This document shows positions 12,382 through 15,967 of a DNA stretch of 24,402 nt, in pieces. The position numbers were made by a program, and so were the translations under genes. Each line of letters starts with the position of its first letter. Position 1 is the stretch's first letter. The notes beneath the pieces are model-generated. The model saw only the letters and a list, made by a program, of their open reading frames with translations, had not been told where the DNA came from and made no database searches. Source of the stretch: an uncultured Novosphingobium sp. (lineage in GTDB: Bacteria; Pseudomonadota; Alphaproteobacteria; Sphingomonadales; Sphingomonadaceae); NCBI GenBank assembly GCA_946886365.1, contig CAMPIM010000050.1:1-24402 (forward strand), written 5' to 3'.

Positions 12382-13203
12382 TCAGGCCGCCAGCAGCAGC
12401 GCGCGCAATTCATCGTCCCGGTCGCGCGGCGCTTGCGCATCGAAGAAAATATCAAATGCCAGCGCGGCCTGCCCGATCAGCATCTCCAACCCATCCAGCG
12501 CCTTCAAACCCCGCGCCCGCGCCACCTTGAGCAGCCCGGTCTCCAGCGGCGCATAGACAATATCATAAACCGTCGCATCGTTGGCGAGCGGCGACAGATC
12601 AAGATCAAGCACCGGCTGCCCCACCATGCCGAGCGAGCTGGTGTTGACCAGAAGATCGGCCGCCGGAAGAGCATCACCCATGCCAATCACCCGCCCCTTG
12701 ACCTTGGCGCGGTCCAATAACGCCTGCCCCTTGGCCGCATCGCGCACCATGACGGTGATGTCCTCCACCCCCAGGCTCGTCAGCGCAAACAGGATCGCTC
12801 GCGCCGCGCCGCCCGCGCCGACCAGTACGGCGCTTCTCCCCGTCCACTTGTCGCGCAGTAGCGGCTGGAGGAATCCCCCCGCATCGGTATTGGTGCCGAT
12901 CAAAGGTCCGCCGGTCTCGCTGGCGATCGTGTTCATCGCCCCGATCCGCTCCCGCACGCCGCCCGGATCATCGGTATAATCCATCACCGCGATCTTGTGC
13001 GGAATGGTGACATTGCATCCCAGCCAATCGGGATCAGCCCGCCTCTCCAGAAAATAGGCGGCCAGACCCTCGGCCGTCACATGCGTCTTGCGATATTCCG
13101 CCTCGATCCCCAGGCAATCGAGCCAGAAATTGTGGATCAGCGGCGATTTGCTGTGCGCGATCGGATCGCCGATCACTTCTGCATAAGGGAGCTTGTCGGT
13201 CAT
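12382..13203 (-). CDS. aroE: Shikimate dehydrogenase
   Basis: This 273-aa enzyme reduces 3-dehydroshikimate to shikimate with NADPH in aromatic amino acid synthesis. The substrate-binding motifs AHSKSPLIHN (near residue 17), NVTIPHK with the catalytic lysine (near 70) and GTNTDAGGF are present. The Rossmann nucleotide loop is GAGGAARA (near 128), and NTSSLGM and the end motif GLEMLIGQAALAFDIF are typical. Its start codon overlaps the maf stop (ATGA), so translation is probably coupled. Length and motifs are normal. Confidence 0.96.
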   Translation of the reverse strand: MTDKLPYAEVIGDPIAHSKSPLIHNFWLDCLGIEAEYRKTHVTAEGLAAYFLERRADPDWLGCNVTIPHKIAVMDYTDDPGGVRERIGAMNTIASETGGPLIGTNTDAGGFLQPLLRDKWTGRSAVLVGAGGAARAILFALTSLGVEDITVMVRDAAKGQALLDRAKVKGRVIGMGDALPAADLLVNTSSLGMVGQPVLDLDLSPLANDATVYDIVYAPLETGLLKVARARGLKALDGLEMLIGQAALAFDIFFDAQAPRDRDDELRALLLAA

Positions 13204-13793
13204 GCTGGCAGAACGCCCCGGACGCGTAGAAAGTCAAGCAGCGGCAGCAACGGCAACCCCTGAATCGCGAACTGGCTGCCCTCAACCTTGCTGAACAGTT
13301 GCACACCCGGTCCCTCGATCCGGTAATTGCCGACGCACCAGCGGCAATGCTCCCATTCTTCGTCCAGATACTTAGCTATGAAACTATCTGACAACGTCCG
13401 CACCGTCATCCGCACCCGCTCGACATGCCGCCAAATCGGCTCGCCATTCAGCGCGATCACCGCCGCGCTGTGCAGATGATGGACCCGCCCCGACAACGAC
13501 CGCAAGATTTGCTCAGCATCAGCGCGGTCCACCGCCTTGTCGATCATGCTGCCATCATCCAGGCTCAACGTCTGGTCGCAACCCAATATCAACCCGCCCG
13601 GCACGCGGCGCGACACCCGCAACGCCTTCAATTCCGCCAGCGCATCGGCCAGAGCGCGCGCATCCAGCCCATCACCGCGCAACGCTTCTTTCGCCGCTTC
13701 TTCATCGACACCGGGCGACATAGCCTCGAACGGCACCCCCGCCGCCTGCAACAACGCCCTGCGGCTCGCGCTTTGCGACGCCAGCACGATCAT
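13200..13793 (-). CDS. Maf-family nucleotide pyrophosphatase
   Basis: This 197-aa Maf-fold protein hydrolyses non-canonical or modified nucleoside triphosphates. It has the N-terminal LASQSASRRALLQAAG motif and the C-terminal GNYRIEGPGVQLF..GSQFAIQGLPLLPLL. The central motif is GCDQTLSLD rather than the GADTVV of the canonical dTTP/UTP pyrophosphatase, which marks the alphaproteobacterial branch commonly linked to aroE and coaE. Substrate preference is therefore not certain. Both ends overlap neighbours by 4 bp (ppsR stop/maf start and maf stop/aroE start), a sign of coupled translation. Confidence 0.9.
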   Translation of the reverse strand: MIVLASQSASRRALLQAAGVPFEAMSPGVDEEAAKEALRGDGLDARALADALAELKALRVSRRVPGGLILGCDQTLSLDDGSMIDKAVDRADAEQILRSLSGRVHHLHSAAVIALNGEPIWRHVERVRMTVRTLSDSFIAKYLDEEWEHCRWCVGNYRIEGPGVQLFSKVEGSQFAIQGLPLLPLLDFLRVRGVLPA

Positions 13794-14617
13794 AGGTCAC
13801 TCCCCTCCGCCAATACGCGGTCGTTGAACAGATTGATGATAGCCGCCGCCGCTTCCTCGATCGACCGGCGCGTCATGTCGATCACCGGCCAGCCATTGTC
13901 GGCGAACATCCGCCGGGCAAAAGCCAATTCCTCCTGCACCTTATCCAGATCGACATAACTGGTTTCCGGCGCCTGATTCAAAGACAGCAGCCGGTTACGA
14001 CGTATCTGCACCAGCCGCTCGGGACTGACGGTCAGGCCCACAACCATCGGATGCTTCAACCCGTAAAGGCTACGCGGTGGCGGCGATTGCACCACCAGCG
14101 GGATATTCGCCGTCTTGTACCCACGGTTGGCGAGATAGATGGAGGTCGGCGTTTTGGACGCACGCGACACGCCCGCCAGAACGATGTCGGCCTCCTCCCA
14201 ATTCTCATGCCCCACACCATCATCATGAGCGATGGTGAACTGGATCGCCTCGATCCGCGCGAAATAGGCTTCGTCTAGGATATGTTTGCGCCCGGGCCGG
14301 TTGCGCGTTTCCTGCCCCAATATATTGGACAAAGCGTCGGTCACGCTGTCCAGCGCCGCAACATGCGGCAGGCCGAGCGCCCGGCAGCGCGTTTCCAGCC
14401 GCCGTCGCAACTGATGATTGGACAATGTGAACAGCACCAGCCCCGGATTAGCCGCAATCTCTTCCATGATCCGGTCGAGATGGACATCGGACCGCACCAT
14501 CGGCCAGAAATGGCGCACCGCCTCCACATTTTCGAACGCGCCGATCGCCGCCTTGGCGATATTTTCCAGCGTCTCGCCTGTGGAGTCAGACAGCAAATGC
14601 AGATGGATACGCGACAT
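13790..14617 (-). CDS. ppsR: Pyruvate, phosphate dikinase / PEP synthase regulatory protein (kinase-pyrophosphorylase)
   Basis: This 275-aa protein belongs to the PPSR/DUF299 family, bifunctional enzymes that switch pyruvate phosphate dikinase or PEP synthase off with ADP and on with phosphate. The family's P-loop-like motif GVSRASKTPTSIYLANRGYKTANIPLV lies at about residues 149-175, and the N-terminus IHLHLLSDSTGETLENIAKAA is typical. Its orthologue in Rickettsia, RP001, is numbered first because it borders the replication origin. Here too it points away from the putative origin, with its start codon at 14617 on the origin's left edge, and heads the maf-aroE-coaE-dnaQ cluster. Confidence 0.95.
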   Translation of the reverse strand: MSRIHLHLLSDSTGETLENIAKAAIGAFENVEAVRHFWPMVRSDVHLDRIMEEIAANPGLVLFTLSNHQLRRRLETRCRALGLPHVAALDSVTDALSNILGQETRNRPGRKHILDEAYFARIEAIQFTIAHDDGVGHENWEEADIVLAGVSRASKTPTSIYLANRGYKTANIPLVVQSPPPRSLYGLKHPMVVGLTVSPERLVQIRRNRLLSLNQAPETSYVDLDKVQEELAFARRMFADNGWPVIDMTRRSIEEAAAAIINLFNDRVLAEGSDL

Positions 14618-14640
14618 GACGCATATCTCTGTGGGGAGCC

Positions 14641-14649
14641 TGTGGATAA
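14641..14649 (-). promoter_or_regulatory. DnaA box (perfect consensus)
   Basis: TGTGGATAA, the reverse complement of the consensus TTATCCACA. A weak relative, TGTGGGGAG, lies just before it at 14630-14638. Confidence 0.85.
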
Positions 14650-14709
14650 AGCAAGGGATAGGTTGCGGGCAAAACTACCCCTTTTGGATAGTACCCATTG
14701 GCCGGAATC

Positions 14710-14718
14710 TTATCCACA
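14710..14718 (+). promoter_or_regulatory. DnaA box (perfect consensus)
   Basis: TTATCCACA exactly, in opposite orientation to the perfect box at 14641 and 60 bp from it. Confidence 0.85.
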
Positions 14719-14740
14719 TGCCCCCAACAGGCCCTCATTT

Positions 14741-14770
14741 TCATCCACAGCCTGTGGATAGCGTGGATGA
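14741..14770. promoter_or_regulatory. Cluster of three DnaA-box-like sites
   Basis: TCATCCACA (14741-14749, one mismatch) and TGTGGATAG (14753-14761, one mismatch, reverse strand) face each other. Together they form a palindrome ATCCACAG-C-CTGTGGAT at 14743-14759. A third, weaker site CGTGGATGA follows at 14762-14770. Confidence 0.75.
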
Positions 14771-14905
14771 CCCGCACTGACTCGGTCCCGAATCCTTGGT
14801 GCTGGAGAGTCAAGCTGTTGGCAAATCGGGGCGCTGCGCATAAACCCCGCTACCAACTGACCTACTATCTCCATCATCCTTTTAAGAATCTAAATAAGAG
14901 AGTTT

Positions 14906-15967
14906 ATGACGGGACCAGATATCGGCCTTTCCGCCGGGCCTTCCAAGCCACTGCTTTCCGTCCTGAAGGGGGAATGCCTTAGCCCACCGCCCATGTGGCT
15001 GATGCGTCAGGCGGGTCGCTATCTGCCCGAATATCGCGCCTTGCGGGCTGAAAAGGGCGGATTCCTCGAACTCGTCTATGATAGCCCCACCGCCGCCGAA
15101 GTCACGCTTCAGCCGCTGCGCCGTTTCGGCTTTGACGGCGCGATCCTCTTTTCCGACATTCTGATCGTCCCCTATGCGATGGGTCAGGACCTTTGGTTCG
15201 AGACGGGGGAGGGGCCACGTCTCGCCCCGATCCTCAGCGAAACGGACCTCTCCACCCTCAAGCCTGATCTCAGCCGCTATGAGGCCGTCTATGAGACCGT
15301 CCGTCAGGTGAAGGCAGCGCTGGACCCGTCTGTCACTTTCCTGGGCTTTGCGGGCAGTCCCTGGACCATCTCGACCTATATGGTGGCCGGGCAGGGCAGC
15401 AAGGATCAAGGCGCCGCTCGTCGTCTTGCCTATCAGGACCCCGAACGCTTCGGCGCGATCATCGACGCGATCATTGAATCTACCGTCACCTATCTTTCGG
15501 GCCAGATCGAGGCAGGGGTAGAGGCGGTGCAACTGTTCGACAGCTGGGCAGGCAGCCTCGCGCCCCTCCAGTTCGAACGCTGGGTGATCGAACCCAACCG
15601 GCGCATCGTCGAAAAGCTCAAAAGCCTTCACCCCAATATCCCCGTCATCGGCTTTCCCAAGGGCGCGGGCGCCAAGCTCGCCGATTACGCAGTGGGCACG
15701 GGCGTCGATGCGATCGGCGTTGATGAAACCATCGATCCGCATTGGGCCAACCGCGTCCTGCCGCAGGGCTTGCCGGTACAGGGCAATCTCGATCCGCTGG
15801 CGCTTATCGCCGGAAGCAGAGCGGTTGAGGAGTCGGTCGACAATATCCGCTCCGCCTTCGCCGACCGGCCCCATATCCTGAACCTGGGCCATGGCATTCT
15901 TCCCGACACGCCCATCGCCCATGTCGAAGCGTTGATCGCCTATGTCCGGCAAGGAAAGAGAAGCTGA
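14906..15967 (+). CDS. hemE: Uroporphyrinogen decarboxylase
   Basis: This 353-aa enzyme removes four acetate carboxyls from uroporphyrinogen III to give coproporphyrinogen III in haem synthesis. The substrate-binding signature PPMWLMRQAGRYLPEYR holds the arginines R34 and R38, and the catalytic aspartate is D84 in ILFSDIL. GFAGSPWTISTYM and GHGILPDTP are further family motifs. The ATG at 14906 follows AAGAGAG with short spacing. It is the first gene right of the putative origin and is read away from it. Its stop overlaps the hemJ start by one base (TGATG). Confidence 0.97.
   Translation: MTGPDIGLSAGPSKPLLSVLKGECLSPPPMWLMRQAGRYLPEYRALRAEKGGFLELVYDSPTAAEVTLQPLRRFGFDGAILFSDILIVPYAMGQDLWFETGEGPRLAPILSETDLSTLKPDLSRYEAVYETVRQVKAALDPSVTFLGFAGSPWTISTYMVAGQGSKDQGAARRLAYQDPERFGAIIDAIIESTVTYLSGQIEAGVEAVQLFDSWAGSLAPLQFERWVIEPNRRIVEKLKSLHPNIPVIGFPKGAGAKLADYAVGTGVDAIGVDETIDPHWANRVLPQGLPVQGNLDPLALIAGSRAVEESVDNIRSAFADRPHILNLGHGILPDTPIAHVEALIAYVRQGKRS

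Follow-up and report, generated by a model that had tools for sequence, protein, structure and literature searches.

A probable main-chromosome replication origin between ppsR and hemE in a Sphingobium-type bacterium

Results and discussion

The 288-bp non-coding gap at positions 14618-14905 of the window (the whole stretch of DNA analysed, 24,402 nucleotides) can be assigned with high confidence, judging from its sequence, as the oriC of the main chromosome of a Sphingobium-type bacterium. An initial annotation of this DNA had proposed an origin here, and the proposal gained support from four results: the gap holds the top DnaA-box cluster in the 1.99 Mb read of a related chromosome (genome G001), its boxes are conserved in the genus, parS lies 25-35 kb away, and the orientation of polar 8-mers flips at the gap in G001.

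Locus and relatives

From the ORF coordinates and the domain assignment, the gap was found to separate two divergent genes, its previously given limits being exact. On the minus strand, ppsR (13790-14617; PF03618) encodes a kinase/pyrophosphorylase of the COG1806/DUF299, RP001 type, and is followed outwards by maf, aroE, coaE and dnaQ. On the plus strand, hemE (14906-15967; PF01208) encodes uroporphyrinogen decarboxylase, and its neighbours are a UPF0093 gene, which we take to be of the hemJ type, panC and mipZ. COG1806 and RP001 are taken to be equivalent, in line with PMC1914354.

The closest named relatives were Sphingobium and its near kin, with ppsR identities of 92-98% in most of the upper rows. 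G001 was the nearest genome compared, having 33% of the sampled 31-letter words in common with the window, and the chromosome-wide tests were run in its contig C1 (2.85 Mb) in place of the window's own genome. The divergent hemE/ppsR arrangement was present in all 80 named relatives, with gaps of 264-943 bp. These comprise a Sphingobium-type set of 31 loci and 49 others; the former excludes L042 (Rhizorhapis) and L044 (a MAG that carries the name Sphingobium), which were counted with the latter for GANTC. A class-wide search of 190 genomes detected ppsR in 118. Among the 30 best-scoring of these matches, the divergent pair was kept in 29 (gaps of 288-866 bp), and the remaining locus had no hemE in the stretch examined.

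DnaA boxes

The boxes described in the initial annotation were all recovered by the sequence scan. Two perfect TTATCCACA boxes stand on opposite strands, box 1 at 14641-14649 (minus) and box 2 at 14710-14718 (plus), the second starting 69 bp past the start of the first. Two boxes with one mismatch follow, namely TCATCCACA (box 3, 14741-14749, plus) and CTATCCACA (box 4, 14753-14761, minus), the latter being perfect in some relatives. A weaker site, TTATGCGCA, starts at 14835 on the minus strand. When the bases of the gap were shuffled 20,000 times, no shuffle yielded four boxes with at most one mismatch to TTATCCACA, or two perfect ones. In the window as a whole, 13 sites with at most one mismatch to TTATNCACA were counted against 5.25 expected, a number attained in none of 100 shuffles. 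Within aroE, a copy of TGATCCACA was also noted (13131-13139, minus strand); it resembles the G-type DnaA boxes of Caulobacter.

In an alignment of 32 rows (the 31 Sphingobium-type loci and the window), the mean column identities of boxes 1 to 4 were 99%, 95%, 92% and 94%, compared with 76% for the whole gap. Box 1 was perfect in 31/31 Sphingobium-type gaps and kept its position in 30, being shifted in L046; it was perfect in L042 too, but not in L044. Boxes 2-4 varied in some Sphingobium-type loci, and variant second boxes were common. Of 61 genus genomes, 37 contained the pattern TGTGGATAA-N55-65-TYATCCACA, each at a single place, and the other 24 lacked it; the reversed control gave no match in any of the 61. 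In the family, at least one perfect box was present in 46 of 80 gaps. Perfect boxes were often lost outside Sphingobium: 34 of the 80 gaps had none, and L061 had no box even at one mismatch.

The identical box pair was found in G001 at C1:2485338 and 2485407, with the same spacing of 69 bp. In the 1,992,500 bases read of the 2.85 Mb contig, 167 boxes with at most one mismatch were counted, and the hemE-ppsR gap was the richest 288-bp cluster (four boxes, two perfect); the runner-up at a separate place had three boxes, one of them perfect. The whole genome contained 14 perfect boxes, and the pair in the gap was the only close pair. A rival box cluster beside dnaA or parS had been named as one of the results that would speak against the origin. 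None was detected in G001: the dnaA region (C1:1-3000, with dnaA at C1:406) held two single one-mismatch boxes and the parS region (2450000-2457000) held one.

If this origin works like others known from bacteria, DnaA would bind the strong inverted boxes at 14641 and 14710 together with the weaker boxes at 14741-14843. The bound protein would oligomerise and help to melt the AT-rich DNA next to hemE (14881-14905); two forks would then depart in opposite directions.

AT-rich stretch and hemE promoter block

The AT-rich stretch was confirmed by recounting (20 of 25 positions A/T). It may act both as unwinding element and as hemE leader; it reaches the hemE start codon and so overlaps the expected ribosome-binding region too. 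It was poorly conserved and poorly alignable, with a mean column identity of 62% against 76% for the gap.

A block at 14815-14860 on the plus strand, containing TTGGCA-N17-TAAACC at 14818, was conserved at 88% and may be the hemE promoter. All 32 alignment rows contained TGTTGGCAA, as did 54 of 80 gaps in the family; TTGGCA occurred in 62 of the 80 but only in 5 of 29 class-wide gaps. A scan of the gap for sigma-70 consensus promoters called none, so the assignment of this block as a promoter is a proposal.

Box 4 and the GANTC sites lie upstream of this block. This arrangement would suit DnaA-controlled operators of hemE and/or ppsR, with replication starting at another place, such as near parS or dnaA. 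Such a function is considered very unlikely to be the whole explanation of the boxes, since neither of those two regions of G001 offers a comparable cluster, and since the gene pair is kept class-wide (29 of 30 loci) and also borders the experimentally identified origin of Caulobacter, according to PMC1914354. The replication polarity described below bears on the same question.

GANTC, CtrA and IHF sites

Five GANTC sites, the target of the methyltransferase CcrM, were found in the 288 bp of the gap. The first (14705-14709) directly precedes box 2 and was present in 21 of 32 rows; those at 14779-14783, 14790-14794 and 14807-14811 were present in 31, 6 and 28 rows, respectively. The fifth (14886-14890) lies inside the AT-rich stretch and was found in 27 rows, distributed over three neighbouring columns (3, 21 and 3). 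The density of GANTC was 15.7/kb in the gaps and 2.0/kb in the flanks of the 31 Sphingobium-type loci, and 15.9 and 2.6 for the 49 other loci, although the flanks are mostly coding and GANTC enrichment is reported in PMC8116508 to be general in intergenic DNA. All seven control pentamers composed of the same letters were rarer in the gaps. Among the class-wide gaps, 28 of 29 exceeded their own flanks; L249 had no GANTC at all. A density of at least five GANTC per 288 bp was reached at about eight places, the gap included, in 1.99 Mb of G001. A second such cluster (C1:2490745-2491225) lies on the hemE side, some 5.4 kb away from the origin. The gaps of three Sphingomonas loci (L094, L089 and L078; 278 bp) each contained 11 GANTC and a lone DnaA box with one mismatch. 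The numbers of GANTC sites and DnaA boxes were only weakly linked (Spearman -0.21, p 0.06).

A full CtrA site (TTAA-N7-TTAA) was absent from the window gap, where a single TTAA was found; in the Sphingobium-type set, 2 of 31 gaps had a full site and 10 had one with at most one mismatch, the corresponding numbers for the 49 other gaps being 2 and 5. One simple IHF consensus was searched for, and it was absent from the window gap and from all 80 relatives. An origin free of CtrA sites is unsurprising, given that in Sphingomonas melonis the loss of CtrA caused no reported growth defect (PMC8116508).

Methylation of the GANTC cluster by CcrM may mark newly copied origins. A stronger proposal would be that, in sphingomonad origins without CtrA sites, the cluster is a once-per-cycle gate, the alphaproteobacterial counterpart of Dam/SeqA: hemimethylated GANTC would keep the origin off after replication until CcrM acts. 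We regard this timing role as unlikely. The oriC of E. coli carries a cluster of GATC sites that serves Dam and SeqA. Methylation sites are clustered among DnaA boxes in both origins; the window has GANTC in place of GATC, and in this comparison a sequestering protein is known only on the E. coli side.

Replication polarity

The gene strand flips at the gap, as had been pointed out in the initial annotation, but GC skew does not: it was negative on both sides and through nearly the whole window. A skew minimum at the site had also been anticipated and was not observed in G001. There, the cumulative GC skew (1.94 of 2.85 Mb sampled) peaked at about 0.77 Mb and formed a broad basin at 1.93-2.85 Mb, about 0.9 Mb wide; as this basin is flat, a minimum elsewhere is not established either. 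At fourfold sites, the two arms of G001 differed after correction for gene strand. The minimum was equally broad (about 0.9 Mb), and 1.25% of 2,000 bootstrap minima fell within 50 kb of the gap. Both measures were therefore rejected as origin locators, the arm effect in the second being real. That single-base skew does not indicate the gap is a point in favour of the boxes being operators only.

Oriented 8-mers were more informative. In E. coli, KOPS motifs point from origin to terminus (PMC2680272). The orientation of GGGNAGGG (KOPS) in G001 flipped between 2472617 and 2485903, the plus-strand share being 18/103 before and 77/94 after, which places the flip at -12.7 to +0.6 kb relative to the gap when KOPS alone is used. 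No KOPS flip was seen at dnaA, if the contig is circular. A second test covered 1.63 Mb of G001. The arms were labelled on the assumption that the gap and 1.053 Mb are the two ends, and all stretches whose start falls at 2.335-2.635 Mb were kept apart as a held-out region. Among 15,235 scored 8-mers, GGGCAGGG was the most polar, the motif not having been preselected. In the held-out stretch, the five top 8-mers, three of which are KOPS, switched polarity at -330 to +565 bp of box 1. This flip across the gap argues against an operator function alone and for the assignment as oriC.

The KOPS flip on the terminus side of G001 was at 1.053-1.055 Mb, and 3-5 kb from it lies the best dif-like site (C1:1050134-1050161). 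It is a weak candidate, because 19 of its 28 letters match E. coli dif and the next best site has 17.

The sole exact parS of G001 was located 31.7 kb from the gap, and in 5/5 genomes examined (G001, G004, G019, G030 and G033) parS lay 25-35 kb off on the ppsR side. The window, with no more than 14.6 kb on that side, contains none.

In the window itself, no KOPS was found on the ppsR side, and seven on the plus and two on the minus strand were found on the hemE side. Four other genus genomes were scanned for KOPS change points within +/-100 kb of the gap. In G004 the change point was at -10.5 to -3.6 kb (five top words: -14.7 to -14.4 kb). It was at -69 to -60 kb in G019 (five top words: -91 to -88 kb) and at -60 to -57 kb in G033 (-79 to -78 kb). 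In G030 it was at +54 to +55 kb with KOPS and with the five top words alike (region C1 ~4254-4305 kb). Thus, of the five genomes, only G001 and G004 have the KOPS flip at the gap or close to it; in the remaining three it was offset by 54-69 kb.

These offsets, which would also be expected if the boxes were operators and replication started elsewhere, could alternatively reflect a start that has moved by tens of kb in some related species, the gap being oriC here and a relic or one of two starts there. That some family members have lost their perfect boxes would agree with such a move. It is nonetheless extremely unlikely in our estimation. The box pair is intact in G019, G033 and G030. Compared with G001, G019 and G033 carry a one-arm inversion (about -43 to -16 kb), with parS inside, which by itself turns KOPS; as the cause of the offset flips it was set aside, since it covers only part of the offset. 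G030 is collinear with G001 to 26 kb and then has about 24 kb of other DNA, so that nearly half of its 54-kb stretch is not collinear. The KOPS offset in three of five genomes is thus only partly explained.

Within +/-10 kb of the 80 loci, KOPS showed no flip at the gap. On the hemE side of these relatives (L015-L094), 220 motifs pointed away from the gap and 50 towards it; on the ppsR side, 119 pointed towards the gap and 49 away, opposite to expectation. This bias would be consistent with a flip located, on average, some 10 kb into the ppsR side. When both sides were summed, 51 of the 68 loci with a non-zero balance pointed away from the gap. The control GGGANGGG gave 51/52 and 96/41 in the same 80-locus count (ppsR and hemE side, respectively). 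KOPS was the most biased of 56 letter permutations on the ppsR side, in a near tie with GGNGAGGG, and the third on the hemE side.

Comparison with known origins

The flanks had been likened beforehand to those of the Caulobacter origin, and the likeness was borne out. Cori of Caulobacter crescentus (hemE/CC0001) is located between hemE and COG1806 and shares with the window the DnaA boxes, the AT-rich stretch and several GANTC sites, according to PMC1914354 and PMC3973325. Unlike Cori, the window gap has neither a CtrA TTAA-N7-TTAA site nor an IHF consensus. PMC3973325 reports that the origins of C. crescentus and its close relatives contain several GANTC motifs; a GANTC cluster at an origin is thus not new in kind.

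The position is likewise that of predicted Sphingomonadaceae origins. According to PMC4741004 and PMC4059872, DoriC predicts oriC near hemE for most of the family, the DnaA boxes of Sphingopyxis (Sphingopyxis granuli TFA) are well conserved, and a putative origin of Novosphingobium PP1Y lies near hemE. The present locus belongs to another genus, and here the box spacing, the GANTC cluster and the KOPS flip were measured. A limited literature search returned no title announcing experimental origin mapping in Sphingobium. The origin in the window is very probably real, well supported, of an already predicted kind and largely ordinary.

An origin delimited to 288 bp, whose sites are conserved and testable, would be useful for vectors of Sphingobium-type bacteria, and also for setting coordinate zero; the contig of G001 starts at dnaA, 367 kb off if it is circular. 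GC skew would miss the origin in G001, where FtsK-orienting 8-mers place it sharply. Finally, a design free of CtrA sites and rich in GANTC would allow one to ask what gates initiation without CtrA.
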